From: a virus
Virus record (IMG/VR): IMGVR_UViG_3300021373_002241
Coordinates: 1-30,220 of that record
Length of the DNA: 30,220 bases
Reading direction: 5' to 3' (one strand)
Shown here: positions 1 through 30,220 of the stretch, piece by piece
Numbering within the stretch: the stretch's first letter is position 1
Layout of the letters: every line of letters starts with the position of its first letter
The notes under the pieces: model-generated
What the model was told of the DNA's origin: nothing
What the model saw: only the letters and a program-made list of their open reading frames with translations
Databases searched by the model: none
Translations under genes and position numbers: made by a program

Positions 1-517
1 CGACAACAATTCTTTCTTCTTCGGTCAATACTGCTTCGATACACTTTGAGATCACCTCAAATCCAAACTGGTCTTCGTTGTCTGCAGATAGATTCATATC
101 GCGATAACTTGGATATTTCATCTCAAGAGAGATATCCTTTGTCAGTTCAATTATGTTGCTCCCGATTGGTTTCGAGCAATTCACGTCGCTGAGCGGAACT
201 GTGATTTCATTCTTCTCTTCACATGAGTTACACTTGATTAGGATATCAGAGTTTTCACCGGTCGATTTTGACCTCAGTTGAAGAAACATATATTCTAGAT
301 CGAACGTACAAAGTCTTGTCACATCAATTGAATCATCAATACATGCCGCAACAGTATTTTCAATCGCCCGAATGATCTCATTCTCATCTTTAGATTCTGC
401 TGCCATCAGCAGGATCTTTTCTTCTTTTACGAGATACGGTCTATACGAAACCTTCTTCCCGCTCGACGGTACTGTCAAAATGTATTCAGGTTTATCATTT
501 AAAGATGGCAAAGACAT
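1..517 (-). CDS. 26: Baseplate hub subunit, T4 gp26-like (partial, C-terminus off the left edge)
   Basis: The reverse strand reads from an ATG at 517 down to base 1 with no stop, giving 172 residues that begin MSLPSLNDKPEYILTVPSSG. This start, followed by KKVSYRPYLVKEEKILLMAAES and FDLEYMFLQLRSKS, matches the pattern I know for the T4 gp26 baseplate-hub family (Pfam T4_baseplate). T4 gp26 is 208 aa, so most of the protein is here. In T4 gp26 acts in assembly of the baseplate hub. A CxxC pair lies at C96/C99. The gene starts 18 bases after the gp54-like stop, with a GGAG ribosome site at 529-532 that touches the end of that gene, so the two are probably co-transcribed. Family assignment is from memory of family pattern, not a search. 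Confidence 0.82.
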   Translation of the reverse strand, partial: MSLPSLNDKPEYILTVPSSGKKVSYRPYLVKEEKILLMAAESKDENEIIRAIENTVAACIDDSIDVTRLCTFDLEYMFLQLRSKSTGENSDILIKCNSCEEKNEITVPLSDVNCSKPIGSNIIELTKDISLEMKYPSYRDMNLSADNEDQFGFEVISKCIEAVLTEEERIVV

Positions 518-534
518 AATTTAAAAAACTCCAA

Positions 535-1284
535 TTAATTTAAAATATCATAAATCTTGTTATTGATCGCGTTACCGATGTTAGTCGAAATGCTCGCACT
601 TCCGCTAATCCCAACTGCAGACTTACCTTCTGCTGGTTTCCCGAACCAATTCCTATACGAGAACTCTATATTTATCTCGCTTACTTCTGCTTTGGCGTCA
701 TCACTCAGCGTTTCGTGCTGAACTGTGATTGGGAAGGCGTCGACAAATTTCCACTCATATACTTTGGTTCCGGATGCTTCTAAATCGAGGTCAACTTCGA
801 GGTCGACATTTAATGGTCCAAGAGAGACTGACTTTCCACGGTTAAATAGTGGAAACCCTTGACCCTTGCGCCACTGATAGACGGAAATATCAAAAGTGTA
901 TTCGTCTGGAAAGGCAACAGAGTAATTTCCCTCTTGACTGAAAGACATGTCGTTATTTTTTATGATGCTCTGCTGCCACGACTCAAAATAATTTCGAACT
1001 TTTTGGTCGTTCAGGACTCTAAAGGAAACGTTGAGGGTCGGATTTATGAAACCATATGCGACGTCTCTCTTTTCCATACCAACAAAACGCTCGACCGAAG
1101 ACAACTGCCTCGCTGGAAGCGTGATCGACTTTGCCAACAAGGTTAGGTTTTGAGGTTTCTCAACTGTTCCGAACGACCCCTGAGCAATGCCTGCCGGAAG
1201 ATTAATCGAGTAAAGGTTTGTTTGTGCGAACCCTTTACCGTTTGATATTGATGCTTTAAAATCTTCAATCGATGGAATTGACAT
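535..1284 (-). CDS. 54: Baseplate tail tube initiator, T4 gp54/gp19-like
   Basis: This 249-residue protein has the look of the tail-tube fold shared by gp19, gp48 and gp54: an N-terminal region with FAQTNLYSINLPAG, a central LPARQLSSVERFVGMEKRDVAYGF strand-loop, and FDISVYQWRKG in the middle. T4 gp54 is 320 aa and gp19 is 163 aa; the length and the hub-gene neighbourhood favour gp54, the protein from which tail tube polymerisation starts on the baseplate. The ATG shares a base with the stop of the upstream gene (TAATG at 1282-1286 read in reverse), so translation is probably coupled. A divergent copy of the tail tube protein itself remains possible. Confidence 0.7.
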   Translation of the reverse strand: MSIPSIEDFKASISNGKGFAQTNLYSINLPAGIAQGSFGTVEKPQNLTLLAKSITLPARQLSSVERFVGMEKRDVAYGFINPTLNVSFRVLNDQKVRNYFESWQQSIIKNNDMSFSQEGNYSVAFPDEYTFDISVYQWRKGQGFPLFNRGKSVSLGPLNVDLEVDLDLEASGTKVYEWKFVDAFPITVQHETLSDDAKAEVSEINIEFSYRNWFGKPAEGKSAVGISGSASISTNIGNAINNKIYDILN

Positions 1285-1886
1285 TAGATCATGCTCCTAG
1301 AATCTCTGTATACTTGACTTCTCTTTCCGTTCTTCCATTGTGCCGCAGGCAAGAATACTGCAATTTCCCATTCTGCTGGTGGTACATAAGACAACTGTCC
1401 TTTTACATGAGAAGTCAAATAGTGTTTAAAACAAGGTTTAAAGTATCTAAGTTTTGAAGAAGACTTTAAGAAATTATATGTCAACCTGAACCTTGTCGTC
1501 TCGTCAAATTTCTTGTTCGTTGTCCTTTCCATCAATGCGTCCAGAAATCTAGCACGAAGCGGTATCGGTAGATAATGGACATTCAACCCATAGAATCCAT
1601 CCTTTGCTGCGCCCATGTTTATGATCAACGGAAACGCATCCCAATACGGCAACGTCTCTTTCCCTTTTGCGTCATAGAAAAACATATACATGTCGCCGAT
1701 ACTACCTCTTTGCCTTGCTTTACCGACCTGTCTTCTCTCAAGAGGGTCTTCTCGCAACAATGCGCGACGATTGATCGCTTTCATGTTGTATAGTCTTTTA
1801 CGAAACCACGCACGCGATTCTTTCGTTCTTGGTTGGATTCCCGCACGGAATGCTTCTAACTCTACTTTTTGAAAAAGATTAGACAT
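1284..1886 (-). CDS. Conserved T4-like virion protein, possible DNA end protector (gp2-type)
   Basis: A 200-residue, strongly basic protein. The N-terminal third is rich in Arg and Lys (for example RAWFRKRLYNMKAINRRALL), followed by a conserved-looking core with YWDAFPLIINMG and GFYGLNVHYLPIPLRARFLDAL. I recognise this core from proteins of marine T4-like phages that are often annotated as the DNA end protector gp2, but I cannot confirm that from sequence alone. In T4, gene 2 lies next to gene 4, which fits the neighbour here. An AAGGG ribosome site lies just upstream of the ATG, and a late-promoter-like AATAAATA overlaps the end of the gp4 gene. The basic N-terminus would suit nucleic acid contact. 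Treat the product name as tentative. Confidence 0.45.
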   Translation of the reverse strand: MSNLFQKVELEAFRAGIQPRTKESRAWFRKRLYNMKAINRRALLREDPLERRQVGKARQRGSIGDMYMFFYDAKGKETLPYWDAFPLIINMGAAKDGFYGLNVHYLPIPLRARFLDALMERTTNKKFDETTRFRLTYNFLKSSSKLRYFKPCFKHYLTSHVKGQLSYVPPAEWEIAVFLPAAQWKNGKRSQVYRDSRSMI

Positions 1887-1910
1887 CTTAAACCCTTAAT
1901 GTTATCACTT

Positions 1911-2399
1911 CTATTTATTCTTCTTTTTTGTAAAAGGTTTCAACGGTTTCAAAGGTTTTGTTGATTTTGGTAAAATACCCATCTTTTCCAGTTCGTTTTC
2001 AGTCCATATCTGAAAATCCCAACCACGGTCGGCGGCATACTCTGCTGCTGCTTCCCATTTATTCTGATTCTTGATGTATGTGAGACCCTCGTTGATATAA
2101 CGCTTGGTCCTTCTTTGACCGGTCGGAGGTTTCGTTTCTTTGGCAGGTTTAATTTCTACGAGAATGGTCTTTCCATTCTCGAGCACGATCTTCAAGTCCA
2201 TATAGTATCGATGGTATCTCTTATCGACTTCATAATAATACGGGATCACGACTTCTTCACTCGACCATTGTTTTACCGCTTTATTCTCATCGCACCATCT
2301 AAATGCATTTCTTTCCCACAAAGAGCGATAAATAATGTTTGTAGGATCACCCCCATATTTGGTTTTATTCTTCGGAGTGTATTTTCCTTTATATGCCAT
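1911..2399 (-). CDS. 4: Head completion protein, T4 gp4-like, TnsA-type nuclease fold
   Basis: The 162-residue product is close in length to T4 gp4 (150 aa), which acts late in head assembly before tail joining. It carries the layout of a PD-(D/E)XK/TnsA-like nuclease: RSLWERN with E29, YYMDLK with D68, and LVEIKP with E82 and K84. The N-terminal KGKYTPKNKTKYGGDP is typical of the family, and the C-terminus is a lysine-rich tail. It is the first gene of the leftward operon; an AGGG ribosome site precedes the ATG, and a TCTAAATA late-promoter-like box lies 35 bases upstream. All presumed active-site positions are filled, so it could be a real nuclease that trims or processes DNA at the portal; that activity is inference. 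Confidence 0.85.
   Translation of the reverse strand: MAYKGKYTPKNKTKYGGDPTNIIYRSLWERNAFRWCDENKAVKQWSSEEVVIPYYYEVDKRYHRYYMDLKIVLENGKTILVEIKPAKETKPPTGQRRTKRYINEGLTYIKNQNKWEAAAEYAADRGWDFQIWTENELEKMGILPKSTKPLKPLKPFTKKKNK
1912..1919 (-). promoter_or_regulatory. Late-promoter-like box AATAAATA
   Basis: Read on the minus strand this is AATAAATA, one change from the T4 late box. It overlaps the end of the gp4-like gene and lies 26 bases before the ATG of the 200-aa gene at 1886. It would give a leader of about 20 bases. One-mismatch boxes occur often by chance at this base composition. Confidence 0.35.
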
Positions 2400-3609: not shown

Positions 3610-4458
3610 ATGTCAAAGTATTTCTCAAGTTTTCCGAATGTTCAATACCTCTTTGGAAATGAGGAGCAACCAGTCTCATACCAAAAACTCTCGAAGTATG
3701 TCGATACAATCGACGTTTTCCGAGAGTCTATCTCAACATATATTGAATACGAAATTAGAGACTTCGAAAGACCGGATACTCTAGCATACGCGTTATACGG
3801 TAAACCAGAATATGAATGGACTTTCTTCTTAATGAATGAAAGGTTGCGCGAAGTTGGTTGGCCGATGGCAACCTATGAACTCAATCTTGCCGCCAAGAAT
3901 CGGTACTTTAAGAATTACATCGCAAAACTGGATGTCTCTACTGCCGAAGAACTCGCAGCATACGCTGATATCTATAATGTCGGTCAGAGTGTTACTTTTG
4001 ACATACCCCCACAACCACTTTTACTAGAAAATAATCAGGAACTTTTGACTCAAGGCGATTTGCCAATCTTGACTGAAGGGAATACCGCATCTGATGCGGT
4101 CGGAAAGGTTCTGAAGAAAGATCTAGATGTGGGCGAAATTACTATCCAAGTGAACAGCGGTTTCGATCCGACCGGTTCGGATGGATTAGCATATGCTGAT
4201 GGATCTAATGAAGTTGTCTTATCTAATACGGTTTATGAGTATGAAGGCACTCACCACTATGAAAATGCTGATGGTGAATGGGTCAATCTTCTCGAAATGT
4301 TCTTAGATCCAGCAGAAGTTAAACTCAACGCAATTCCAGTCACCAACCTTGAATATCTGACAAGCCAAAACGACGAAGCAAGGAAGATTCGAATCATCAA
4401 GAAAGAAAATATAGAGGCGATTGTAGGCGAGTTCAAACGTCTAATGGAAGCATCTTAA
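3610..4458 (+). CDS. 53: Baseplate wedge subunit, T4 gp53-like
   Basis: The 282-residue product begins MSKYFSSFPNVQYLFG and continues with IEYEIRDFERPDTLAYALYG and YEWTFFLMNERL, the typical gp53 opening in T4-like phages. gp53 joins wedges to one another and to the hub at the end of wedge assembly. T4 gp53 is 196 aa; the extra length here comes mainly from an acidic, turn-rich middle segment (about 130-215). The C-terminus, with NLEYLTSQNDEARKIRIIKK, again fits the family. It starts 2 bases after the gp48 stop and its own stop overlaps the next ATG (TAATG at 4456-4460), so the genes are translationally coupled. It contains one of the rare GGCC sites (3860-3863). Confidence 0.83.
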   Translation: MSKYFSSFPNVQYLFGNEEQPVSYQKLSKYVDTIDVFRESISTYIEYEIRDFERPDTLAYALYGKPEYEWTFFLMNERLREVGWPMATYELNLAAKNRYFKNYIAKLDVSTAEELAAYADIYNVGQSVTFDIPPQPLLLENNQELLTQGDLPILTEGNTASDAVGKVLKKDLDVGEITIQVNSGFDPTGSDGLAYADGSNEVVLSNTVYEYEGTHHYENADGEWVNLLEMFLDPAEVKLNAIPVTNLEYLTSQNDEARKIRIIKKENIEAIVGEFKRLMEAS

Positions 4459-8564: not shown

Positions 8565-10020
8565 AACCGACAATTATTACGCAAGGCTTGAAAAGTTCGA
8601 TTCTTCAAGAGAAAGAACCGAAGGCATAACACTGGATGGGTTTAACGATCCAACAGGAGAGTTTCCTTCGCGCGATTATTTTTATGGCACCAGCGTCAAC
8701 AAAGCATCTAAGGGCGAGGAAGTCAATAACCTCAGTTTGGGTGGTGGCGACTACGGCATCTCTTTAGACATCCCTGATCAAAAACCTTCTGTCTTTCCAT
8801 ACAATCAAGTTCAGCAAACTGCATCAGGCCACTCCTTCGAGTTAGACGATACTCCTGGAGGGGAAAGGGTTCTTGTCAAGCATAGAACTGGTGCTGGGAT
8901 CGAGTTAAGAGCAGACGGCACTGTCGTAATCTCTTCTCGCAATCAACGTGTAGAGGTTACAGGCGGCGATCATACAACAATTGTTGAAGGCGAAGGCAAA
9001 TTAATCTATAAGGGAAATCTGACTCTAGACGTCTCTGGTGACCTGAACATGAATGTCGGCGGTAACTACAATTTAAATGTTGCTGGCGATAAGAAAGAGG
9101 AAATAAAAGGTCGACACACAAAGACTGTAAATAAGGATCAGAACTACACAATCCGAGGTGCACGTGGTGCTAAGGTGATCGGGAACAACACAGAAACCGT
9201 GTTGGGCGATCATCACCATATTGTAGCAGGAAACTCAAATCAATTGGTGCAGGGAGATACCGAAATTCTAAGTGGGAATAATCTCACAACAACAGCAGTA
9301 AACGAATGGGTTGTCGCTGCTTCTACAACAAGTCTCGCGGCGAGACACATTAGTATGATTGGACACAAGGGTACGATTGGCGGTCCACTTCTCGATTATT
9401 ATGGTAAGACCTATGGCGGTTTCCCTGCCGCAGTCACCAATATGTCTACTTTTTATGGGACATTGGTTGGAAAGGCGACCGAAGCACTTCATGCTGATTA
9501 TGCTATGTATGCTGCTCAAGCAGGGTTCGCAACAGGAGCAGGACAAGCACTAACTGCTGTGACCGCGAAAGACAGCAAGCCAGGTAAACCGCCGAAGATG
9601 GTCGTTCCAAAACCTGGAATTATGCCATATACTCCGATTCCAGCAACTGCTCCGATTCCAAACCCAGCAGTGGTAGAAATGCAACTTTCGTCATCTACTT
9701 ACGGTGTTCGCAATGTTGCAGTAGATCCTAAGTTAAAAGATAAACTGAGCAGATCAGACGAGTACAAAGGGTTGTTCGATCACGATCCATCGATTCAAGA
9801 AATACGATCTAAACTCCGCGACAAAGCACACCTGAACAATAACGAGTTTACTGGATATCTGGTTAGTAGCGGAAAACTAAACGATCAATTTAAGAGAAAT
9901 ATCCCGAAGAATATCGGTCGAACAGCGAATAAGAGCGGAACAGTCAGATTCGGGACGAACCTTCTGGGCAATAATCCGATCGATAATAGAAGCAAGAGAT
10001 TCAAGGTGAATAGAAAATGA
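8554..10020 (+). CDS. gp5 C-terminal-like spike (triple-stranded beta-helix needle)
   Basis: The 488-residue product contains the VgrG/gp5 needle. GHSFELDDTPGGERVLVKH (92-110), GAGIELRADGTVVISSRN (113-130), then about 20 short strand repeats of the type VxGxxxxxVxG run from 130 to 270 (NLTLDVSGDLNMNVGGNYNL and similar). In T4 this part is the C-terminal third of gp5 and forms the membrane-piercing needle. After the helix come an Ala-rich segment (AVTNMSTFYGTL, AMYAAQAGFATGAGQA), a Pro-rich linker (593-620 in translated numbering is not reached; it lies near 345-370) and a C-terminal domain with IRSKLRDKAHLNNNEFTGYL seen in marine T4-like gp5 proteins. The first 80 residues may link to the rest of the spike. 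Three of the rare RGCY sites fall in this gene. Confidence 0.8.
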   Translation: MTNKTDNYYARLEKFDSSRERTEGITLDGFNDPTGEFPSRDYFYGTSVNKASKGEEVNNLSLGGGDYGISLDIPDQKPSVFPYNQVQQTASGHSFELDDTPGGERVLVKHRTGAGIELRADGTVVISSRNQRVEVTGGDHTTIVEGEGKLIYKGNLTLDVSGDLNMNVGGNYNLNVAGDKKEEIKGRHTKTVNKDQNYTIRGARGAKVIGNNTETVLGDHHHIVAGNSNQLVQGDTEILSGNNLTTTAVNEWVVAASTTSLAARHISMIGHKGTIGGPLLDYYGKTYGGFPAAVTNMSTFYGTLVGKATEALHADYAMYAAQAGFATGAGQALTAVTAKDSKPGKPPKMVVPKPGIMPYTPIPATAPIPNPAVVEMQLSSSTYGVRNVAVDPKLKDKLSRSDEYKGLFDHDPSIQEIRSKLRDKAHLNNNEFTGYLVSSGKLNDQFKRNIPKNIGRTANKSGTVRFGTNLLGNNPIDNRSKRFKVNRK

Positions 10021-10751
10021 AGGTTTTAGTTGACCCACAATACAATCCAGACCTACAAGAGAAGGTCACTTCTTCGACCAAACTAGGAATCGGAATCACT
10101 TGTGCTAAGTTTCTTGGTTCTAAAGGTTCGTCGACTCAATTCGAAAGACTCTATGCAGCAGACTATTTCGGTTCGGCAGATAGAAACCAGATCGCTAGAA
10201 ACCTTGTGCTTCATGCGAATGCTATCAACGCGGTATATCTGAATAACGAATTCGCGCAACACAGATTAATTGTTTCGGATGGTATCTACGAACCAAATCC
10301 AAAGTTTGAGATTAGCGAGATGCCAACCGGCACCGAAGAAAATTCTAAGAAGGTCGCGAATAGTGTTCCGAATGCTTCTTATGGAAAGGGTCCAGACGGT
10401 TGGATTGCAAGAGTCCCAGTCTATACTGGCGAAAGACCTTCTGCCGGAAGTATCAATGATCTGAGAAGAGACGGTCGGGCGATCGGTTATCAACTAATTG
10501 ATAAATATGGTAAGACCGACCCGAGGAAGTCGTTTGACCTTGCATTGTTCTGGAAAGATTATGTCGATTATGATAAACTTTCGCTTGATTACGACACCTT
10601 TGATCCAAGCGGTGAACTAACTTGTACAATTTTTTTACAAATTCCTACAGTTCCAGACTCTTGGGAGGTTAAATATAACTATGACCTTGAAACGACGTAC
10701 AACGGCGAACTTCAAGCGAAGAATGAACTATTAGAAATATTGCCAGAATAG
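10017..10751 (+). CDS. Spike-associated protein, faint M15-peptidase-like features
   Basis: A 244-residue protein I do not firmly recognise. Its start overlaps the needle gene stop (ATGA), and its N-terminus (VDPQYNPDLQ, TKLGIGITCAKFLG) reads like a continuation of the gp5 C-terminal region of marine T4-like phages. HRLIVSDGIYEP (82-93), NDLRRDGRAIGYQLID (147-162) and GELTCTIFLQIP (199-210) fall in the order of the three core elements of M15 D,D-peptidases (SGYR-like strand, SxHxxGxAxD, HxD/HxH strand). The zinc ligands are absent, so if the relation is real the domain is non-catalytic. Likely role: part of the central spike or hub. Homology is inference. Confidence 0.5.
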   Translation: MKVLVDPQYNPDLQEKVTSSTKLGIGITCAKFLGSKGSSTQFERLYAADYFGSADRNQIARNLVLHANAINAVYLNNEFAQHRLIVSDGIYEPNPKFEISEMPTGTEENSKKVANSVPNASYGKGPDGWIARVPVYTGERPSAGSINDLRRDGRAIGYQLIDKYGKTDPRKSFDLALFWKDYVDYDKLSLDYDTFDPSGELTCTIFLQIPTVPDSWEVKYNYDLETTYNGELQAKNELLEILPE

Positions 10752-10759
10752 GAATAAAA

Positions 10760-11323: not shown

Positions 11324-11380
11324 GATCGCAAATACAATAAATATAACTGTATAAACATTGGTTGATTAACCATCATATTT

Positions 11381-11388
11381 TATAAATA
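11381..11388 (+). promoter_or_regulatory. Late promoter box TATAAATA for the coiled-coil fibre
   Basis: An exact late box in the longest intergenic gap of the window. It lies 82 bases before the fibre ATG at 11470, giving a leader of about 76 bases, longer than for the other genes here. A second near-match AATAAATA lies at 11336-11343. The leader also holds the short inverted repeat GAAAC-TCAGA-GTTTC at 11408-11422. Confidence 0.7.
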
Positions 11389-11469
11389 CAATATGTAAAA
11401 TAATTTTGAAACTCAGAGTTTCTGACTCTTTTCGTCATAAAAAAAATATAACAATAACGGAGAAAAGAG

Positions 11470-13179: not shown

Positions 13180-13201
13180 TAAAGAAATAATATGAAATTA
13201 A

Positions 13202-13223
13202 GGGGACTTCGGTCCCCTTTTTT
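13202..13223 (+). terminator. Rho-independent terminator with UUCG loop after the coiled-coil fibre
   Basis: A perfect six-pair stem GGGGAC/GTCCCC, closed by a TTCG tetraloop (extra-stable in RNA) and followed by six T bases. Two A bases before the stem can pair with the first T bases. It ends the fibre transcript 22 bases after its stop and stands directly before a late promoter. Confidence 0.92.
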
Positions 13224-13226
13224 GTG

Positions 13227-13234
13227 TATAAATA
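13227..13234 (+). promoter_or_regulatory. Late promoter box TATAAATA for gp6
   Basis: An exact late box three bases after the T-run of the terminator and 29 bases before the gp6-like ATG, giving a leader of about 23 bases that includes the GGAG ribosome site. Confidence 0.8.
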
Positions 13235-13262
13235 CTTTTGTTATTAATTTTGGAGAAGGCAA

Positions 13263-15053: not shown

Positions 15054-15082
15054 AACATTATAATGTAAGTAGAGATTGAAAT

Positions 15083-16420: not shown

Positions 16421-16423
16421 AAG

Positions 16424-19400: not shown

Positions 19401-21763
19401 ATACGGCAAACGGCAAGTATGTTTCTCGCGTCGTTTCTTCGGATACACTTCGATCTATCGTCAATGGTAGAATCGTTGATCTTGCGTTGGTTCCATGGAT
19501 GCGTTCGAGAAAGATCTACTTCCACGCGAAGGGTCTAAAACCAAAAACTAAATTTACACCATTCTTTGACGGTCAAAACGTATCAGAGTGGTGTCGTGAA
19601 GAAGCAACCTTTGTTCGTTGGGCAGACCGTACAGACGATATCGGAAACCAATATCGTACCAGTTCTGTTTCTACTCACCCAGAAGGCACAACCGAACTCA
19701 CTTCTGATGAAAACGGAGAAGTGATCGGGTCATTCTTCATCCCGAATATCAAACCTGTGTACTATGTAACGCGCTATGGTAAGCGAAGAACGAAGAAAGC
19801 AGTTTACAGAAGATTCCGCACTGGTATTCGTGAATTCAAGTTGCTTGATATTAACGATAATAACTGGACAGAAGCGAACAGCAAATGTTTCGCATACTAC
19901 ACTGCACTCGGTGCGTTTAGCAAGCGTTACAACAACATCCTTTCAACAAGGGCACATCAAGCAATCACTCCTTGGAGTTACATTAATTCGCGAATGAGTG
20001 TCTATACTCCGAAGGAAACAAGGGATATCTTAAACAATGTTTCTGTTTCTGGCGTTTCGCTTGTTGATCCGAAGTTGGCGGGTAAGTATGGTCCAGCAAC
20101 TACTCCTCTGACGAACGCGGCATTGTCTGGATTAGATGCTACGGGTCAGATGTCTCAGGTTCTTTCGGATTACATCAGCGTAAACGAAAATCAATTTGCT
20201 GGTGCAAGAGTTAATCCACTGTCGATTCCTCAGAATCCTATGGCACAAACCTTTGTTGTCGACAATCAGTTCGGTGTTGTTCTTACTAAGATCAGTTTGT
20301 TCTTCCGTGCAAAAGACTCGGGTAATCTTCCGATCTCGATTCACCTTCGACCGGTAGAAAACGGCAAACCATCTACAACAACAATCGTTCCAGATTCTCA
20401 TGTTTTCTTGAATCCGAGCGAAGTCACTGTCGTCGGTACTGATCCGCAATTGTCAGATGTTCAAGCATCTCCAACTGATTTCGTCTTTGACGAACCAATC
20501 TTCCTACAACCGTGGACTGAGTATGCGATTGTCGTTTCAACTCAATCTACAGAGTATGATTTGTTTAGTGCGAAAACTAAGGAATCGGTGTTGGGATCAA
20601 GCGCAAGAACTGTGACGACTCAACTTGCTTCTGGATCACTATTCCTGCCACAAAATGGTGTGATGTGGTTAGAATCTAAGGATCAAGACTTGATGTATAA
20701 ACTGCATCGCGCGAAATTTGACTTGGGCGGTGGTAGTTTGATCCTCAGAAATGCTAGACTTCCTGCAACTTCATTGGATGATAATCCAATTCGTACGAAT
20801 GCAGGTTCTTCTAGAATCTATGTCTCTCAGCGTTGTCATGGTCTAGAGGTTGGCGACCAAGCATACCTCGACAGTTGCTCTGCTGATATCAACGGCATAC
20901 CATTCGCAAGTATTAATGGAGCGCATGTCGTAGACTCTGCCGACTTGAACGGTTATGTTGTTGACGTGGGTTCTGCGGCAACTTCGACCGGATTCGGTGG
21001 CGGCGATAGCATCCTTGCTAGAAAGAATAAAGTATTCTCTGTCGCTAATGCTTATGTCGAGTCGGTGATTCCTAACTTTACGTCGATCGATATGTCTGCT
21101 AAGTTCACAACAGGTAAGTATATTTCTGGAACAAATACTAGATTCAACCAAGATGCACAATATGTTCGAGTAACACCGCAACAAAATATTGATTTCAATA
21201 GTCCAAGAGCAATCTACAATCAGTCTTCAGAAGATAGCGATCTGGGCGCAGGTGTATATTCTTCTTATGTTAAAGTCGACCTGAAAACATCGAACGATTA
21301 TGTTTCACCGATTATCGATTTACAGCGTGTTTCTTTAATTCTGGCAGGTTTCTGTATGGATAACCCAGATGTGACACCTAGCATTTATCCGGTATCAGAA
21401 GCAGAACCTCAAGGCGGTACTGCGGGTTCTAAGCATATCACAACTCCGGTGACACTCGCCGAACCGGCAGTTGGTATTGATGCTCGACTTAATGTAAATA
21501 TTCCGGATGGAGCAGATATCGAATTCTGGTTCAGAACTGCTTCTGCAGATCAGAATATCAACGATCTACCGTGGACAAGACAGAATATTGAGAATCAGAT
21601 TCCGAACGATAACGATCAAACTTATCGTGAGGCAAGGTTCCTTCCTGGAGGTGCTGGTGGTAATCTACAACCGTTTAATCAAGCACAAGCGAAGATTGTT
21701 ATGAAGGGTTCGTCAGATCACCCAACCATTCGTAATCTGGGAATTACATATTGCGCCGTCTAG
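16424..21763 (+). CDS. Giant outer baseplate / fibre-network protein, DUF4815-type
   Basis: At 1779 residues this is the longest complete gene. The first 560 or so residues (STYRDDFRDSDNYHQILFNS, GRALQARELTQLQTLVYEEM, FDVYEGDFFVLGRFV) match the DUF4815 pattern found in long marine T4-like virion proteins. A Trp cluster WNNWMWNWCGRR lies near 941-952. The region near 1015-1150 has DLALVPWMRSRKIYFHAKGL and LKPKTKFTPFFDGQNVS, then DENGEVIGSFFIPN and FRTGIREFKLLD, a module typical of phage fibre-network proteins. AQTFVVDNQFGVVLTKISLF near 1270 begins a third module. By position after gp8 it may take the place of T4 gp7 and/or gp10; that is inference. No transmembrane segment or enzyme motif is seen. 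I found no RGCY site in its 5.3 kb. Confidence 0.75.
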   Translation: MATTFTSDTLLSTYRDDFRDSDNYHQILFNSGRALQARELTQLQTLVYEEMGRFGRNIFKEGSAVSSGGTAINSEYDCVKIASTNEPAAFSDIPVGGVFEGLTSGIKAKVLRVEPKSNDFVLDTLYIQYIDNNDAAVTGSPSVFQDGETLVGPDGYQLITENPNATGRGVRFDVYEGDFFVLGRFVQANSQSIILSPYTNTVDAVVGFKVEQEVVTVNDTTALYDNTGGTPNTASPGADRYRIKLTLTTQDKVASDDIFVYIARVENSTIVDEVKTSDAYNKLGDLLATRTNEESGDYIVNPFTIHIDDNIPNDSNLDLVVSAGTAYVNGYRVDNSSPTKLSIPRPVATETVTNDVIPVSYGNYVLVDSCRGLPDLDYGRVTIYAANNSSLGTAHIRAVEKDGAYHRVYLFDIEPLTGISDNLNDARKIGTDPNTDYFGIVLEGGKFRLHQTTDNDLLFPTARPRPESFSDITMTVQSRQSQVATGGTITMSQLSVGEAYTDTSLWVVAAADESFQVINPTVSSDGRDAQITGLTAGKTYEVIYYYSKTATRKSKTLTTATETVPLRTIDGVNFYVFDHPDIYQIDSARNTDASGLDMLGRFTLDDGQRDNYYENGRLILNAQDSAPNEIYVNYQYYSRGAGDFYDATSYSHPYADIPTHAFQDGTEINLFNYLDFRPDKDSDDTFSNIHELPRNGTNITADVSYYLPRADKLIVTQEGDIQLLMGQQAEKPQFKPTPDNALELYKVLLNANTLDQNDLQTTPIEHKRYTMADIAKLEAKLDELEEYTTLSLLELEQRMSPSLDSDGNERIESGSFVDDLKDQSGADTHNPDYSASIDPESRLIRPSADEDNIRLVWDSSLNPASNNITKQGDQVYLGYDSAQWVSQPLASRSVNPNPFGIVDNVGTLKLSPSSDEWKESKEEAESAITGASKIDRHQAFLWNNWMWNWCGRRAEDNQFDYNSRPKNAAEARRRRELFRREKYSSSFSSLPTDTANGKYVSRVVSSDTLRSIVNGRIVDLALVPWMRSRKIYFHAKGLKPKTKFTPFFDGQNVSEWCREEATFVRWADRTDDIGNQYRTSSVSTHPEGTTELTSDENGEVIGSFFIPNIKPVYYVTRYGKRRTKKAVYRRFRTGIREFKLLDINDNNWTEANSKCFAYYTALGAFSKRYNNILSTRAHQAITPWSYINSRMSVYTPKETRDILNNVSVSGVSLVDPKLAGKYGPATTPLTNAALSGLDATGQMSQVLSDYISVNENQFAGARVNPLSIPQNPMAQTFVVDNQFGVVLTKISLFFRAKDSGNLPISIHLRPVENGKPSTTTIVPDSHVFLNPSEVTVVGTDPQLSDVQASPTDFVFDEPIFLQPWTEYAIVVSTQSTEYDLFSAKTKESVLGSSARTVTTQLASGSLFLPQNGVMWLESKDQDLMYKLHRAKFDLGGGSLILRNARLPATSLDDNPIRTNAGSSRIYVSQRCHGLEVGDQAYLDSCSADINGIPFASINGAHVVDSADLNGYVVDVGSAATSTGFGGGDSILARKNKVFSVANAYVESVIPNFTSIDMSAKFTTGKYISGTNTRFNQDAQYVRVTPQQNIDFNSPRAIYNQSSEDSDLGAGVYSSYVKVDLKTSNDYVSPIIDLQRVSLILAGFCMDNPDVTPSIYPVSEAEPQGGTAGSKHITTPVTLAEPAVGIDARLNVNIPDGADIEFWFRTASADQNINDLPWTRQNIENQIPNDNDQTYREARFLPGGAGGNLQPFNQAQAKIVMKGSSDHPTIRNLGITYCAV

Positions 21764-21768
21764 TGTTT

Positions 21769-21776
21769 TATAAATA
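21769..21776 (+). promoter_or_regulatory. Late promoter box TATAAATA for the LamG-like adhesin
   Basis: An exact late box six bases after the stop of the 1779-aa gene. The leader would be about 47 bases and carries a GGAG ribosome site before the ATG at 21829. Confidence 0.75.
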
Positions 21777-21828
21777 AAGTTGCATATTTCGTTATAAACT
21801 TCAAATTAACGAATCAACGGAGAATAAA

Positions 21829-23724
21829 ATGCCTTCAACTTTTTTTTACAAGAGTGTTGGAACACCAACGACTTTTATTAAACCGGACAGAGTAGCAACA
21901 CCCCCAACGAATGTTGGTCCTGCTTCTGCTTGGGACGCACATTCAGGGGCAGTCACTGAAGTAACTTCTGTTGAATATTTTACCGATATTTCTACGAATG
22001 AATTTTCTGTAACGCCTACTTCAGGAGCAGTAATATCTTCTGATAATCCATATTCGGATTCTTCACTGTCAGTAGATTGTAATACAACTGCGCCTGCCCA
22101 TGGTCACCTTGTAATTGGTCCAAGCACCAACCTAGATTATGATAATAATACTTCATTTACTGTAGAATTTTGGATGAAAGCAGATCCTGCTTCCGGAACC
22201 ACTGAAAATATTGTGGGATATGGTACAACCCTTTCTGATGCAGGAATAAACTGGATGATCCGAAGAAATTCTAGCGGTATTCGTTTCATGCTTAAAAGCA
22301 ACGGAACACTTTATTATGCTGATGCAACCACAGGAATAAATGAAGATCAATGGAATCATGTTGCTGCAGTAGGGACTGGAAGTGGAATAAAACTTTGGAT
22401 AAATGGTGTATACAGAACATCCACTGCTGTTTCGACTAATCTGCAAAATACAGGCGGATCATTATATATCGGTAGGTATACAAACCAATTCAACGGTAAG
22501 ATTGCTGATTTCAGATATGTGGTTGGAACACAAGTTTATACTGGAACAAGCAATTTTACACCACCAACTGCACCACTTTCTAGCATTACAAATACACAAG
22601 TTTTGCTGCGTCCGCAGACCGAGACGTTCAATTCTTCCCGAGCATTAATCACTTTGGACCATCAGAACGCATATAATTATGGTCAGACAGGGTCGTTTCT
22701 CGGCAAAGGTATCTTTTATGTGGGTCGTATGAGATCACCAATTGATGGCGCTGACGCTTCACTTTGGACAGGACTCATGAACGGCGGAAACATATATGCT
22801 GTTGAAAATCGTGACGCAGGAGAAGACGACTTTGGCGTTTATCACTGGGGTCTTGGAAGGATAACGAATCCTGACGTTAGTATCCCAAGACCAAACCTTA
22901 ATCAGGAATTTACCACAGGGATGTATATCAATTCTAGTGGTCAGGTCGAATATTCTGTAAATGGTCAGGTGTTTCATACAACTTCAATTTCTACCGCAGT
23001 CGCAGCATATATGCTCCCTTTCATAAGAATGTATGGCACTACTACTGCTGAGTATGAACTAGAAAGGGTTGCAATCTTGACAGCAGAAAGTCACGATGAA
23101 GCTTATAACACTTCTCTAGGTGAAGGTTATGTATCTAAAATAATTAGACCGACGCCTGCTGGTACACCGACGCCTCCATTCTCATCATCTTCTGATGCAA
23201 TTTCTGCCGGTTATGGCGGATCGATCACAACATTCTATAGTAATGGAGTAACGAAGAACGCCTACATTGACAATGATGGTTGGATTCTTTATTCGTCGTT
23301 CGCGAGCGACAATACATTGACATCGACTAATGCGACTGCGTGGAATGGCAACAACGTCTTGAATGCAGACCTCACGGGTCTAGGATACACGACCAATGCT
23401 GCATCATGGAATGATGGAACTGGTGCTTCTACTAACACGCAGTATAACAGACCTCCTGAACATTATTATTTCTATGGGAGTGGAAATGGGTACGTCGATA
23501 TTTCAACATGGAACGGTCCAAGTAATGCTAACCAAATTAAAGTAATCTGGCAAGGCGTTGCTCCATATGATGCATCTTCTCGTGTTATCGTCAATGGTGG
23601 ATCAGAACTTTCAACACAACCGACCGAAGAAGCATTCTCACCTACCGGTTCAACTCCTCTGTTGAGAATGATAGAGAATGGCATCGGTATTTTTGCAGTA
23701 AATTCAATTTGGTTTAAGATGTAA
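21829..23724 (+). CDS. Adhesin / receptor-binding fibre with LamG-like lectin domain
   Basis: A 631-residue protein. The N-terminus (MPSTFFYKSVGTPTTFIKPD) is probably the attachment end. Residues about 70-240 are a concanavalin A-like/LamG (Laminin_G_3-type) domain: SFTVEFWMKADPASG near 107, QWNHVAAVGTGSGIKLWING near 178, and GKIADFRYVVGTQVYTG near 222, the usual strand order of such sugar-binding jelly rolls. A second beta-sandwich at about 265-430 is likely (GIFYVGRMR, YSVNGQVFHTTS). Residues 465-631 are a Gly/Asn/Ser-rich C-terminal domain that could be the receptor-binding tip. Own late promoter at 21769 and GGAG site before the ATG. A surface glycan receptor is the likely partner, by inference. 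It has one AGCT site at 23100. Confidence 0.75.
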   Translation: MPSTFFYKSVGTPTTFIKPDRVATPPTNVGPASAWDAHSGAVTEVTSVEYFTDISTNEFSVTPTSGAVISSDNPYSDSSLSVDCNTTAPAHGHLVIGPSTNLDYDNNTSFTVEFWMKADPASGTTENIVGYGTTLSDAGINWMIRRNSSGIRFMLKSNGTLYYADATTGINEDQWNHVAAVGTGSGIKLWINGVYRTSTAVSTNLQNTGGSLYIGRYTNQFNGKIADFRYVVGTQVYTGTSNFTPPTAPLSSITNTQVLLRPQTETFNSSRALITLDHQNAYNYGQTGSFLGKGIFYVGRMRSPIDGADASLWTGLMNGGNIYAVENRDAGEDDFGVYHWGLGRITNPDVSIPRPNLNQEFTTGMYINSSGQVEYSVNGQVFHTTSISTAVAAYMLPFIRMYGTTTAEYELERVAILTAESHDEAYNTSLGEGYVSKIIRPTPAGTPTPPFSSSSDAISAGYGGSITTFYSNGVTKNAYIDNDGWILYSSFASDNTLTSTNATAWNGNNVLNADLTGLGYTTNAASWNDGTGASTNTQYNRPPEHYYFYGSGNGYVDISTWNGPSNANQIKVIWQGVAPYDASSRVIVNGGSELSTQPTEEAFSPTGSTPLLRMIENGIGIFAVNSIWFKM

Positions 23725-25024: not shown

Positions 25025-26833
25025 ATGTCTGAAGTTAAAATTACAGATCTGACCGCGGCCGCATCTGCTGCGGACTCAGACGTTCTCGTTATTGTTGATG
25101 TTGCGAACGACACAACGAAAAAAATCACAAAGGGTAATTTAGTCGCCGGTTTAGGCGGTTCAGGCGGTCTAGATTCTGCTGGAGTTCAATCTGTTCTCGA
25201 TGGATTACAGACTGTTTCTATTGGTGTTAATGCTAATGCAGCAACAGGTACAGTCGCAATCGGTGACACTGCAACGGTAGTTGCTAATGGTGTTGCTATT
25301 GGTCATGATGCCTATGCTTATCAGTATGGTGTTGCGATTGGTCATGATGCACACCAAGGTTGGAATGGTCATCGTGCAGTCGTTATCGGTTATGGAGCAG
25401 GTAGTAATAATACAGGTTTCGATGCTGTTGCAATTGGTTATCAGGCGGGCGGCGGTGTTAGTTCTGGAAGTTATCCATCTCAAAGACACAGAAACGTTTA
25501 TGTTGGTGGTAGTGCTGGTGCGAATCGCCCTGCACTTTATGGTGTTGCGATTGGTTGGGAAGCAGGTGAAACGAGGCACGGTACATCTTCAGTAGCAATT
25601 GGTGCGATGGCAGGAAAAACTGACCAAGGTGATAACAATATTATCGTTAATGCGACTGGTGCAGCTTTAGATAGAACTGATAATTTTGGTATCGATATCC
25701 GTACATCTGACTCTGGTTCTGTAACTTACTCGACGGATTCAGACTGGCAGTTTGGTGCTTCAGTAACTGCGCCAGAGTTCAAGTTCTCAGACGGAACTTC
25801 TATGACTACTGCTCCAACTGGTGGCGGCGGTGGTGGTCTAGACTCTGCAGCGGTTCGAGCGATGATGCTCGATTCTGTCTCTACCTCTTCGTTGACAATT
25901 TCTGAGACGGTAGATTCTGGACAAACTGCAGTCCTTACATTTGATAGCGACAATAATGCATTGTTCTCCGGTTCAGTAACTGCTTCTTCGTTTATCGGCG
26001 ATGGTTCTCAGTTGACAGGTATTTCTGCTGGTTCGAGCGGTCTGGACTCTGCAGCAGTAAATGCTATGATTGATTCAGATTTCAATGACCCAGAGGTACT
26101 GACATTCGGCACAAATTCTACTGTAATTACAATTGGCCGAACTGCTGCCAACCACACCGGTGTTGCAATTGGCAATCAAGCAGATGCTTCTGGTGGTTTA
26201 TATAACGTCGCTATCGGAACGTCTGCAAAAGCAGACACACAAGTTGGTACCACTGCCATAGGACATAATGCAAAAGCACAAGGGACATTCTCCAGTGCAT
26301 ATGGTAGAGACACCAACGCGAGCGCCCAGTATGGCCTCGCGTTGGGATATGGTGCTCAAGCGACAGGTTCGAATGCAAAGGGTATTGGCGGCAATGCTAC
26401 TGGAAATTATTCAGTCGCAGTCGGCAGTACTGCTTCGGGTGTCGGCACAATATCAATGGGTTATAGTGCCTCAGCGGCAGGAACATCATCTGTTGCTCTG
26501 GGTAATGACGCCACTACAGCATCAAATGCGCAATATGGTATTGCGATCGGTAAAAACGCTGGTGCTGATACCTCGCAAACAATCCACATTAATGCGACTG
26601 GTCAAACGACAAATCAACCACAAACAGCATATGGTATTGCGATCGAAACTAGTCCTTATGGTTCGTTGACATACGACACTACGAACGATTGGACGTTTGG
26701 TGCTGGTGTCACTATGACCGATCTCACTGCGAGCGGCGCGACTGTTGTATTCAGTAACTTACCAACAGCAGATCCAGTGAATGCTGGTCAGTTGTGGAAT
26801 GATAACGGAACGCTAAAAATTTCAGCAGGATAA
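25025..26833 (+). CDS. Tail fibre with duplicated YadA-like beta-roll modules
   Basis: A 602-residue protein. N-terminus: KITDLTAAASAADSDVLVIV, an attachment motif shared in pattern with the next fibre gene. Residues 64-215 and 366-525 are two blocks of short repeats such as GVAIGHDAYAYQYGVAIGHD and SVALGNDATTASNAQYGIAI, the left-handed beta-roll signature of YadA head domains (Pfam YadA_head). Each block ends in a related tail: VNATG, then GSVTYSTDSDWQFGASVT (231-248) or GSLTYDTTNDWTFGAGVT (546-563). Between them are GLDSAAVRAM, a FIGDGSQLTGIS motif and a second GLDSAAVNAMIDSD. The end, LPTADPVNAGQLWNDNGTLK plus ISAG, is a common phage fibre terminus. It should be a trimeric fibre. AGGAG ribosome site at 25013-25017; a terminator follows. 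Confidence 0.8.
   Translation: MSEVKITDLTAAASAADSDVLVIVDVANDTTKKITKGNLVAGLGGSGGLDSAGVQSVLDGLQTVSIGVNANAATGTVAIGDTATVVANGVAIGHDAYAYQYGVAIGHDAHQGWNGHRAVVIGYGAGSNNTGFDAVAIGYQAGGGVSSGSYPSQRHRNVYVGGSAGANRPALYGVAIGWEAGETRHGTSSVAIGAMAGKTDQGDNNIIVNATGAALDRTDNFGIDIRTSDSGSVTYSTDSDWQFGASVTAPEFKFSDGTSMTTAPTGGGGGGLDSAAVRAMMLDSVSTSSLTISETVDSGQTAVLTFDSDNNALFSGSVTASSFIGDGSQLTGISAGSSGLDSAAVNAMIDSDFNDPEVLTFGTNSTVITIGRTAANHTGVAIGNQADASGGLYNVAIGTSAKADTQVGTTAIGHNAKAQGTFSSAYGRDTNASAQYGLALGYGAQATGSNAKGIGGNATGNYSVAVGSTASGVGTISMGYSASAAGTSSVALGNDATTASNAQYGIAIGKNAGADTSQTIHINATGQTTNQPQTAYGIAIETSPYGSLTYDTTNDWTFGAGVTMTDLTASGATVVFSNLPTADPVNAGQLWNDNGTLKISAG
25214..25669 (+). repeat. YadA-like beta-roll block 1
   Basis: Residues 64-215 of the 602-aa fibre hold repeats with the core VAIGxxA, at variable spacing of about 14-27 residues, ending with an IIVNATGA strand. 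Loops carry His- and Gly-rich insertions (HQGWNGHRAV, SYPSQRHRNV). Confidence 0.8.
26120..26599 (+). repeat. YadA-like beta-roll block 2
   Basis: Residues 366-525 repeat the block 1 design at an offset of about 314 residues. Repeats are more regular, close to 14 residues (VAVGSTASGVGTISMGYSAS), as in bacterial YadA heads, and end with IHINATG. Confidence 0.8.
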
Positions 26834-26924: not shown

Positions 26925-29900
26925 ATGGCAAATAAGAAAATCTCTCAACTTCCTACCTCATCCACGGTAACGGATAGCGATCTCTTAATCATTAATGATA
27001 ATGGTGTCACCAAGACAGCAACTAGAGAAGCACTCTTAGACGGTATCACAAGGAACGTCACAGACTCTGGTAATGATGCTATTGTTGCAGGAGACCTAGT
27101 AGTTGCGAACCAGATTACTGCTGGCGGTGATATCCTCACGACCGGTAACATTTCGTTCGGTTCTTTGACAGATCACCTCACTGGTGTCACTGTTTTGACA
27201 ATGGTTGACTCAGGTGGTGGAGTCGAAACATTCGATAGTTCTATTGCCACTTCTTCTGCAATTAAAGGGTATATTTCTGCGCAAGACTTTGGTCTTGATT
27301 CGGTTGCAGTCTTACAGTTAATTAACGAAAACCCTGGAATTGATTCTGCGGGAGTTCTTTCGCTCGTCACTGGTTCAGACCTTGATATGGGTGGAAACAA
27401 AGTTTTATTTGGCAACGTCTATACTGCAGAGGGTGATCTCCCGAATGCTTCTACATATCACGGTATGTTCGCACACGTCCATAATACTGGAGCAGCATAT
27501 TTTGCCCATGCTGGAAACTGGGTTCGTTTGGCGAATAACTCAGATTTAGGATCTGGTGGGGCGGGTGTAGACTCTGCACAAGTAATCGGAATATTAGAAG
27601 ATGGTGTTAACAACATACTACCATCTTTGGATTCTACCTATGACCTTGGATCCCCGACTCAAAAGTGGAAAGACCTGTATCTCAGTGGATCAACGATTAA
27701 CCTTGGAAATAAGACTATTAGTCAGTCTGGCAACAACCTTGTAATTGGTAATGCTAATGCGGTTGTTGCGACAGCATTTATCGGTGATGGTTCTGGACTC
27801 ACAGGAATTAGTAGTGGCGGTGGTTTGACAGAAGACGATGTTCTCGACTTGATCAACCAAAACCAGCAGTCCGCCGGACTTAACGCACGTGCTGTTAAAA
27901 TCTTGCCTTTGAATGGTCAGGTTATCAGATATGATAGCGACGGCAACGAAGAAGATACTTTGACATTCCGTGCTGTTCCAGAGAATGGTGCGAATACTCT
28001 CACCTATAAATGGTCTGTGAAAGCAGCAGCTGCACCTGATAATGCTTGGATTGTTGAACAAGATGGTCCATTAACTGACTTCACGTTAGCAGATGTGGAT
28101 GAACCTGGAGCAGAAGGTGTTAAAGTAATCAAATGTGAGATGTACGAAAACACCGATGGTACAGATAGTGCCGAGAAAGCACAAGACATTATGACTGTTT
28201 ATGGTCTTGCCAATGGTTTTGGAATCACTGGATTCCTGACGAACGAATCTCACGTAGAACCAGCAGACTCGACCGGTTCTCTCTTAACAGTATTAAATGA
28301 TGCGGGCGGCACATTCAAAGTATTCCTAGGAACTAACGACATCACAACTGACCCTGCTGTTACGTTTAGCAATCCTTCTAATTCAGGAATCAATGTCACC
28401 ATCGACAACAACGGTGTGTACGCATTAAATTCTTCACCAAATGCAGATGCTGCCTTTGCGAGTCTTGCAACACTTGCAGGTTCGGCAGTATTTGAAGCGA
28501 ATATCGGATCTTCACTAATTCCAAATTCGAATACGGATATGGTAATCGAAAAGAAATATACGATTGCTAAATCGCTCAGAGGTTCGACTGGTCCATCCGG
28601 AACTGGTGTTGGTAATCCTGGAGTAGATGCAAGAGCAGTTAAACTCGTTCCAAATAACGGTCAGGTAATTCGTTACTCAGCAGACGGATCGACAGAGACT
28701 GATACACTGACATTTACTGCTCAACCGAACGGAGCATTTACCGGAACCATAACTTATGATTTCGCAGTAAAGAAAGGCGGCGGCAGTTCTTTTGAAGAAA
28801 AGCAAGGTCAGGGTAATGGTGCCGACTTCACACTAGCAGATGTAGACGAACCGAGTGTCGACTCGGCGTATGTCGTTCGTGTTCAAGCATATGAAGATGG
28901 TAATGGTGTAAAAGCACGAGACTTTGTAACGGTCTATGGTCTAGCAGATGGAACATCAATCACCGCATTCCTAACGAATGAAGCACACGTTGAAGGTTAC
29001 GACTCTGATGGAAACCTCGTGGACAATTTCGACGATGCGGGTGGCACATTTAAAGTATTCCGTGGGACGGATGAGATCACGACGTCTTGTACTTTCTCGG
29101 TTGACACTGAGGTCGGCGTTGATGTTGAGATAGGTGCTAGCACTGGGATATATGTCGTTAATGGATTCTCGGCGACGAAAAAAGGTTACGCAGATTTCCA
29201 AGTTGAAGTTCCAGCATCATTGATTAATGGCGCGACAGATCCTTTGCGGATCGATAAGAGATATTCTATCTCTAAATCGAGCGACGGTTCTTCTGGCGCA
29301 AATGGCACCTCTCCGATCACTCTGGATCTAACGAACGAAAATCATTCTGTTACTGCAGCGAGAGATGGTTCTCCGTATACAAACTCATTCAATGGCGCGG
29401 TAACAACGTTGAACATATATGATGGCGCAGATGTTTTGTCAGTTCCTAGTAATGACATCTCAGTCTCGCCAATTTCAAGCATTGATAGTGCGTCATACAC
29501 TTTATCGAATAACAATCGGACACTGACTGTCACTAACATGGCTGATGACGTCGATGTTTCGACGCTGACATTTAATATTGGCGGTTCTACAGCAGCGAGC
29601 GGAAAGTCAACAGTATTCACTTTGACAAAGGTCAAAGATGGACAGGACGGTTCAGGAATTACCGTCGACTTGACGAACGAAAACCACTCTATTACTGCAA
29701 CAAATTCTGGCGCACCGTATGACAGCGATTACATCGGAGTAGTAACATCCCTTAGCGCATTTAATGGAAGCAATCCCCTTACTATTGCCAGCGGAGAAAT
29801 CAATATCTCATCTTCTGTCACAAAGGCGACAAGTGAAGGAAATAGGGGAGCGAATAATATCGATTACACCGTTCATAACGGAAATAAAACAATTCAAATT

Positions 29901-30220
29901 GTTCACGTCGGTTCAAATGTAGATGAATTTACAATCACATTTAGTATTACTGGTGGATTGGCGAACGGTAAATCGAAAGTCTTTAGCGTCTCAAAGATAA
30001 AAGACGGCGATAATGGTGATCCTGCGACTTTTTATCGATTGAGACTGGGTTCATATGTCATCAACAAAGCATCTAATGGTGTATACACTCCCTCTGAGTT
30101 CACTGCAACAAAACAGAAAGCGGTAGGGAGTACAACACCAGCAGATACCACAGACGGAACACTAAGGATTTATCGAAATGGTGACACCGATACTTCAGAT
30201 GCCGTCGCGACGAGTTCAAG
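26925..30220 (+). CDS. Large tail fibre with tandem Ig-like repeats (partial, C-terminus off the right edge)
   Basis: An open frame of 1098 residues runs from an ATG at 26925 to the window end. Residues 1-40 (KKISQLPTSSTVTDSDLLII) repeat the attachment motif of the preceding fibre. DSAGV-type linkers (GLDSVAVLQLI, GIDSAGVLSLV) and a conserved phage block STYHGMFAHVHNTGAAYFAH near 180 follow, then a YDLGSPTQKWKDLYLSGSTI block near 231 and FIGDGSGLTGIS near 286. From 321 on there are two 248-residue Ig-like repeats, then two 114-residue ones, joined by short Gly-rich linkers (GSTGPSGTG, KDGQDGSG, KDGDNGDP). Each repeat carries an LTNExH motif (438, 683, 802, 916). It has its own late promoter at 26883. 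Likely the long or central tail fibre; the tip and any chaperone lie outside the window. Confidence 0.8.
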   Translation, partial: MANKKISQLPTSSTVTDSDLLIINDNGVTKTATREALLDGITRNVTDSGNDAIVAGDLVVANQITAGGDILTTGNISFGSLTDHLTGVTVLTMVDSGGGVETFDSSIATSSAIKGYISAQDFGLDSVAVLQLINENPGIDSAGVLSLVTGSDLDMGGNKVLFGNVYTAEGDLPNASTYHGMFAHVHNTGAAYFAHAGNWVRLANNSDLGSGGAGVDSAQVIGILEDGVNNILPSLDSTYDLGSPTQKWKDLYLSGSTINLGNKTISQSGNNLVIGNANAVVATAFIGDGSGLTGISSGGGLTEDDVLDLINQNQQSAGLNARAVKILPLNGQVIRYDSDGNEEDTLTFRAVPENGANTLTYKWSVKAAAAPDNAWIVEQDGPLTDFTLADVDEPGAEGVKVIKCEMYENTDGTDSAEKAQDIMTVYGLANGFGITGFLTNESHVEPADSTGSLLTVLNDAGGTFKVFLGTNDITTDPAVTFSNPSNSGINVTIDNNGVYALNSSPNADAAFASLATLAGSAVFEANIGSSLIPNSNTDMVIEKKYTIAKSLRGSTGPSGTGVGNPGVDARAVKLVPNNGQVIRYSADGSTETDTLTFTAQPNGAFTGTITYDFAVKKGGGSSFEEKQGQGNGADFTLADVDEPSVDSAYVVRVQAYEDGNGVKARDFVTVYGLADGTSITAFLTNEAHVEGYDSDGNLVDNFDDAGGTFKVFRGTDEITTSCTFSVDTEVGVDVEIGASTGIYVVNGFSATKKGYADFQVEVPASLINGATDPLRIDKRYSISKSSDGSSGANGTSPITLDLTNENHSVTAARDGSPYTNSFNGAVTTLNIYDGADVLSVPSNDISVSPISSIDSASYTLSNNNRTLTVTNMADDVDVSTLTFNIGGSTAASGKSTVFTLTKVKDGQDGSGITVDLTNENHSITATNSGAPYDSDYIGVVTSLSAFNGSNPLTIASGEINISSSVTKATSEGNRGANNIDYTVHNGNKTIQIVHVGSNVDEFTITFSITGGLANGKSKVFSVSKIKDGDNGDPATFYRLRLGSYVINKASNGVYTPSEFTATKQKAVGSTTPADTTDGTLRIYRNGDTDTSDAVATSS
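27885..29327 (+). repeat. Two 248-residue Ig-like repeats in the partial large fibre
   Basis: The copies start at ARAVKILPLNGQVIRY (27885) and ARAVKLVPNNGQVIRY (28629), an in-frame offset of 744 bases. Both share FTLADVDEP, TVYGLA, LTNExHVE and DAGGTFKVF. DNA identity is clearly lower than protein identity. Confidence 0.85.
29328..30012 (+). repeat. Two 114-residue Ig-like repeats in the partial large fibre
   Basis: Copies start with LTNENHSVTA (29328) and LTNENHSITA (29670), offset by 342 bases in frame, and end with GKSTVFTLTKVKDG and GKSKVFSVSKIKDG. The LTNExH start is shared with the longer repeats before them. Confidence 0.82.

Follow-up and report, generated by a model that had tools for sequence, protein, structure and literature searches.

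Near-total loss of the four-base word RGCY from a marine T4-like phage fragment and its close relatives, consistent with selection by a restriction nuclease

Introduction

What could remove a degenerate four-base word almost completely from a phage genome? The question is raised by the IMG/VR virus fragment IMGVR_UViG_3300021373_002241, a partial genome of 30,220 bases that was analysed over its whole length and is called the window here. By gene content it belongs to a marine T4-like myovirus of bacteria, and the word in question is RGCY, that is AGCT, AGCC, GGCT and GGCC. A preliminary description, made from the letters by eye, had claimed that these words are nearly absent and had named a host or rival nuclease, a phage-encoded nuclease and a context-dependent mutation process as possible causes. 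We counted the word against several expectations, followed its loss and retention in related contigs, and searched the relatives for genes that could explain the pattern.

Loss of RGCY in the window

The full count gave only 12 RGCY sites (AGCT 3, AGCC 2, GGCT 2, GGCC 5), compared with 344 expected from base composition at 42.7% G+C, a depletion of about 29-fold. Under a second-order Markov model about 166 sites would be expected, with observed/expected ratios of 0.05 for AGCT, 0.07 for AGCC, 0.04 for GGCT and 0.22 for GGCC; the first three lie below the ratio of 0.1 that serves as the criterion for Type II avoidance. Synonymous codon shuffling, in which protein and codon usage were kept, gave 244 sites on average, the lowest of 30 shuffles having 214, and recoding by third-base composition alone gave 337. 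Against this protein-preserving recoding the ratios are 0.02 for AGCT, 0.02 for AGCC/GGCT and 0.09 for GGCC. Codon usage and protein constraint are therefore rejected as the cause, since neither the codon shuffle nor the third-base recoding reaches the low count. The near-total loss that had been claimed is thus borne out: the preliminary description would have given it up at more than about 100 sites or if a codon-preserving shuffle had reproduced the shortage.

The remaining seven GC-core words reach 0.92–1.55 of the protein-preserving expectation, and the inverse word YGCR is as frequent as had been stated (TGCA 116, CGCA 95, TGCG 85, CGCG 62). The depletion step is sharp and bounded exactly at the self-complementary word RGCY. 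The residual sites, together with the longest stretch between them, are as follows (no strand is assigned). Of the positions reported earlier 11 of 12 were exact; the one given as 25056 is correctly 25057.

3860 to 3863, residual RGCY (full count)
4363 to 4366, residual AGCC; AGTC in the relatives G001 and L003 (count and alignment with relatives)
8585 to 8588, residual GGCT; GGTT in L002 and L003 (count and alignment)
8827 to 8830, residual GGCC; GGGC in G001, GGAC in L002 and L003 (count and alignment)
9578 to 9581, residual RGCY (full count)
9582 to 23099, stretch with zero RGCY (full site list)
23100 to 23103, residual RGCY (full count)
25057 to 25060, residual RGCY (full count)
25663 to 25666, residual AGCT; missing from G001 (count and alignment)
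26135 to 26138, residual RGCY (full count)
26333 to 26336, residual GGCC; missing from G001 (count and alignment)
28028 to 28031, residual AGCT; AGCA in G001 (count and alignment)
29540 to 29543, residual GGCT; GGCG in G001 (count and alignment)

The RGCY-free run of 13.5 kb spans the genes for gp25, gp6, a wedge subunit, a DUF4815 protein and lectin-domain proteins. No flanking-base requirement was found at the residual RGCY sites of the window's clade. In 24 kb aligned between the window and G001 at about 95% identity, three RGCY sites are shared, three are private to the window and one is private to G001, compared with 66/60, 40/43 and 44/32 private sites (window/G001) in the control classes. 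New RGCY sites therefore seldom arise or persist between the two genomes.

Selection on the DNA word

All three codon phases of the window are depleted, with 4, 3 and 5 RGCY sites compared with 76, 52 and 110 expected. The effect is most easily seen at alanine codons, where the combinations R-GCR, Y-GCR and Y-GCY occur 263, 260 and 244 times and R-GCY only 5 times. In the non-coding DNA of the RGCY-poor contigs there are 14 RGCY sites compared with 163, 193 and 203 for the other three classes; a cause at the level of translation is rejected because non-coding DNA is RGCY-poor as well.

The way in which sites were lost was followed in aligned codons with unchanged amino acids, using relatives in which purging is weaker or absent. 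Only 8 of the 229 RGCY sites of these relatives were retained, and none of 905 other GC sites had turned into RGCY. A context-dependent mutation process, in which methylated cytosines within RGCY deaminate to thymine and so erode the sites, would fit part of this record: in phase xRG|CY, where such changes are synonymous, 71 of 90 lost sites show the C-to-T or G-to-A form, and genes for TET-family oxygenases (TET) and TET-associated glycosyltransferases (TAGT) suggest methylated cytosine in some relatives. At alanine codons, however, deamination changes the amino acid, so that RGCY should persist there, yet 0 of 89 alanine-phase sites were kept. All 89 were removed by flanking third-position changes, which swap a purine for a pyrimidine or the reverse. 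Deamination is therefore rejected as a sufficient cause, and as the RGCY-poor genomes yielded no C5 methyltransferase either, we regard it as a very improbable explanation. It is nearly certain that long selection has acted on the DNA word RGCY itself.

Relatives sharing the loss

Relatives were first collected as 80 IMG/VR contigs found by gp6; further scans used DNA polymerase, ssb, helicase, dCMP deaminase, ribonucleotide reductase, isocitrate lyase and a small early gene. The nearest isolate to the window is phage C48C1 (Kyanoviridae), whose gp6 is 41% identical and for which no host is given. Among the 80 gp6 relatives, the loss of RGCY extends to those nearest the window, while others purge other words. 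G001 (65.7 kb) has 44 RGCY sites compared with 752 expected and G003 (92.9 kb) has 55 compared with 1101, with observed/expected ratios of 0.05–0.06, and under the protein-preserving model the same sharp step is found in G001, G003 and L125/135/138/141/189. The near-complete G082 (155 kb) retains 161 sites, 0.11 of expectation, and the ratios are 0.06 in G083 (55 kb), 0.12 in G084 (71 kb), 0.065 in G085 (30 kb) and 0.07 in G086 (19 kb). L319 and L215 have zero RGCY compared with 82 and 60 expected. Mapped onto the DNA polymerase tree, the RGCY-poor label requires six changes, at least five of which are forced by well-supported branches; the trait may have been gained several times, or gained a few times and also lost.

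Other words purged in sister clades

Sister clades, judged against codon shuffling, lack different words. G017 (144 kb) has 0 of 164 expected CGCG and 9 of 153 CCGG, the G008 group 4 of 314 AGCT and 46 of 470 TCGA, and L154/L161 1 of 188 AATT and 0 of 74 AGCT; in L344 both GATC and GTAC are at zero. The group of L325, L328 and L333 (G052), a phage of 33% G+C, lacks GATC (0/98), AGCC (0/66) and AGCT (0/52) entirely over 41 kb of coding sequence. It represents an AGCY variant of the loss, with AGCT and AGCC at 0.00 and GGCC spared at 0.89 in G052. In a VGCB variant, G057, the words are at 0.05–0.22 of expectation and the NGCA words at 1.3–1.7; this VGCB set presumably overlaps the relaxed GC-core specificities of the chlorovirus enzymes CviJI and CviKI-1. 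The loss of different words, mostly four-base palindromes, in sister clades is what might be expected as the footprint of different Type II restriction systems.

Several further observations on word usage were made. G017, G011, G014, L153-L160 and L175 show a broad shortage of AGC/GCT words beyond the RGCY loss, and the GC dinucleotide is at 0.64–0.69 of expectation in G017, G011 and G014. In the first 50 kb of the isolate Melnitz (L119) CGCG is at 0.00, GATC at 0.02 and CCGG at 0.05, and this phage carries an HhaI-like methylase; in the first 50 kb of Pelagibacter phage HTVC008M (L120) TCGA is at 0.00 and CGCG at 0.02. None of 17 contigs with Dam is GATC-poor compared with 16 of 202 without it (rank test, p 0.06), so that the contrast between modifying and avoiding is only suggestive.

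TET-linked cytosine hypermodification

The preliminary description had spoken of an unmodified phage, which is doubtful. G085 represents the early part of the genome in the window's clade. It shares a gene with L124 at 95% protein identity, and the polymerase of L124 groups with that of G003, which places G085 in the clade. G085 encodes a TET-family oxygenase (L717:13885-15252), directly followed by TAGT (L717:15249-16052, PF20691, E 5.5e-18), and a Dam-like methylase (L717:2961-3908), so that its DNA may be modified. G082 carries the same TET-TAGT pair (G082:129444-131578). G066 (L531:2312-5159) encodes a P-loop nucleotide kinase 3, TET and an amino acid:DNA transferase (ADDT), and L319 (L319:1064-2806) an ADDT, a kinase and a TET C-terminus.

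RGCY could accordingly be the target of the phage's own hypermodification, and sites could have been purged because bulky bases are costly. In favour of this, several RGCY-poor contigs carry TET: G085 and G082 together with TAGT, G066 and L319 together with ADDT, and also L185 and L186. Its presence does not track the depletion, however: the TET-bearing L288, L665 and L676 are not purged (observed/expected 0.66–0.78), while TET is missing from the RGCY-poor G083 (observed/expected 0.06), which does have the genes that neighbour it elsewhere. Phage TET activity is reportedly directed at GpC, and a GpC-directed system should hit all NGCN words and not RGCY alone. Moreover, in the complete C48C1 (156 kb) a TET homologue occurs without any C5 methyltransferase (PF00145), and the same holds for G082. 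Judged from gene content, TET/TAGT appears neither necessary nor sufficient for the RGCY loss, because there is TET without depletion and depletion without TET, and we consider it quite improbable that hypermodification explains it. It may form a second layer of protection against the same or other nucleases.

Phage-encoded methyltransferases and nucleases

Searches for a C5 methyltransferase (PF00145) gave no match in the window, which is a fragment, in the 27 first contigs, in G001, G003 and G082-G092, in the RGCY-poor set or in the complete C48C1. A beta-class N4/N6 methyltransferase (PF01555) was detected only in G084, and not in the 155 kb of G082. Self-methylation of RGCY sites was thus not seen in the gene content of RGCY-poor phages. 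The Dam-like D12 methylase was rejected as a protector of RGCY because it is adenine-specific, while GGCC contains no adenine.

The word could alternatively be cut by a nuclease of the phage itself or of a competing phage, which would degrade host DNA or exclude rivals while sparing its own genome by lacking the word. RGCY is the specificity of CviJI, and the restriction enzymes of chloroviruses are thought to degrade host DNA (PMC7019647). A lone nuclease could sit in the early region of the window's clade, which was seen in separate contigs only and with gaps, and G085 encodes a weakly GmrSD-like protein of 441 amino acids and a thermonuclease-like protein. Yet none of the gene families in the fetched loci follows the RGCY depletion, the 441-residue protein occurs in one contig and has elsewhere only an 80-residue match of 35%, and chloroviruses protect themselves by methylation, which has no counterpart here in a C5 methyltransferase. 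The preliminary description's option of a phage-encoded nuclease, for which no gene was found in these loci, is one that we consider rather unlikely.

The 441-residue protein itself (L717:16456-17781) lies near TET/TAGT; its N-terminus has the weak GmrSD match and its C-terminus looks HNH-like by eye. A cluster near the DNA polymerase gene that had seemed to track the depletion was rejected as a spurious antisense open reading frame over the primase gene.

Origin of the selection

Selection by a Type II restriction system of the host with a CviJI-like RGCY specificity is, in our view, the probable explanation. In this mechanism, a nuclease in infected cells would cut RGCY in double-stranded DNA, its likeliest source being an orthodox Type II restriction-modification system of the host. 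Each lost RGCY would raise the chance that an infecting genome survives, which would result in long purifying selection against the word. We favour selection by a nuclease because RGCY is depleted exactly, in all codon phases and in non-coding DNA, because sites disappear by flanking transversions, because several clades are affected and because sister clades lack other words. What was observed is selection on RGCY as a word without wider context, its recurrence and the purging of other words; from this we infer, as most likely, a nuclease as the agent, owned by the host and of Type II. The elimination of Type II sites is an established phenomenon in non-temperate double-stranded DNA phages (PMC6286503); the window phage, T4-like in its gene content, may be of this kind.

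Some observations weigh against this explanation. A bacterial RGCY system was not found in the literature searched, and neither a host nor an RGCY enzyme was found. The 44 sites left in the 66 kb of G001 and the 161 in the 155 kb of G082 could still be cut by a fully active enzyme, so that, given 40–160 sites in long contigs, avoidance alone would give only graded protection. The cytosine-hypermodification genes of the close relative G085 could make avoidance unnecessary. The preliminary proposal of long selection by an RGCY-specific nuclease thus stands firmly as regards selection on the word, and a nuclease is its natural cause, although neither its host nor the enzyme has come to light.

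A scan of genomes for the host yielded only two metagenome-assembled genomes with related phage contigs, both of Bacteroidota and of uncertain binning: L360 (JAAXIF010000028.1, Sphingobacteriales SW22112_bin_1) and L361 (NZAX01000118.1, Flavobacteriaceae ARS19), which are T4-like and have terminases 77% and 71% identical to that of G001. Shine-Dalgarno-like starts are not expected of Bacteroidota. Since they precede 11 of the 21 window genes, the binning of these two contigs is doubtful.

A host defence nuclease of another kind, for example phosphorothioate-dependent or modification-dependent, might also read RGCY. Such systems read short words too, and the cytosine-modification genes of G085 in the window's clade could be an answer to such a nuclease or its trigger. 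However, in a published survey avoidance was nearly confined to orthodox Type II systems and was weak for modification-dependent ones (PMC6286503), and a nuclease of this kind is unlikely to be the cause.

Host Type II restriction, our preferred explanation, can be compared with known systems. The cases of Rusinov et al. 2018 (PMC6286503) resemble the window phage in that a short self-complementary word is almost missing from a large phage genome, more so than codon usage and composition would explain. In contrast to those cases, RGCY is degenerate, with about one site expected per 88 bases, and by composition it is purged about 17- to 30-fold both in the window and in the long contigs closely related to it; also in contrast, clades with AGCY and VGCB variants exist and the cognate host enzyme was not found. 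The unusual point is thus the degeneracy of the purged word, while strong site elimination itself is already documented.

The word is identical to that cut by the chlorovirus enzymes CviJI and CviKI-1 (RG^CY), which are known as enzymes, whereas here the specificity is known from its genome footprint only. To our knowledge, and in the literature searched, RGCY has been described only as the specificity of such CviJI-type enzymes, and we know of no link of the present phages to chloroviruses or algae. In contrast to the chlorovirus systems, the RGCY-poor phages show no C5 methyltransferase. CviJI star activity is a relaxed specificity with a GC core (PMC7019647). The hypermodification pathway of phages (TET, PF12851; TAGT, PF20691; ADDT, PF18724) has genes in several RGCY-poor relatives, one of them in the window's clade. 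Unlike in a causal role of this pathway, gene presence does not follow depletion, and C48C1 and G082 combine TET with the lack of a C5 methyltransferase.

As a more tentative possibility, we speculate that the RGCY, AGCY and VGCB losses are footprints of undescribed, diversifying nucleases of uncultured marine bacteria that read a GC core, and that T4-like phages answer them by word loss and, in some lineages, by TET together with a glycosyltransferase or amino-acid transferase acting on cytosine that is possibly host-methylated. More generally, word loss in phage genomes would record the nucleases deployed by unseen hosts, and here it points to RGCY-cutting systems that are apparently common enough in the marine hosts of these phages to have shaped several clades. 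A clade-by-clade list of purged words could be matched to hosts identified with single-cell or proximity methods, which makes the prediction of host and defence for uncultured phages testable. As word loss occurs alongside TET/TAGT genes, it may be asked how protection is divided between avoidance and base modification. Melnitz and HTVC008M, which have known hosts and also lack certain words, are suited to a direct test.

Gene content and minor observations

The genes of the window fall into two blocks, which support its assignment to the T4-like myoviruses:

2 to 2399, minus strand: baseplate hub, tail tube, DNA end protector and head-closure genes (phrog_150, phrog_45, phrog_429, phrog_218, PF08722)
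2450 to 30218, plus strand: T4-like baseplate and tail-fibre module (tail tube cap, gp53, gp5-like lysozyme, amidase, gp25, gp6, wedge subunit, DUF4815, laminin-G and YadA-head proteins)

The fibre proteins are rich in repeats. In G003 the large terminase is split into two open reading frames, each matching the same C48C1 terminase and separated by about 0.9 kb (G003:29721-32411, also numbered L087:9721-12411), which suggests an intron or an insertion. L366 encodes a full-length phage isocitrate lyase (L366:1325-2566; NCBIfam NF011645, 622 bits compared with a cut-off of 562), which looks like an auxiliary metabolic gene and has at least 80 relatives on viral contigs.

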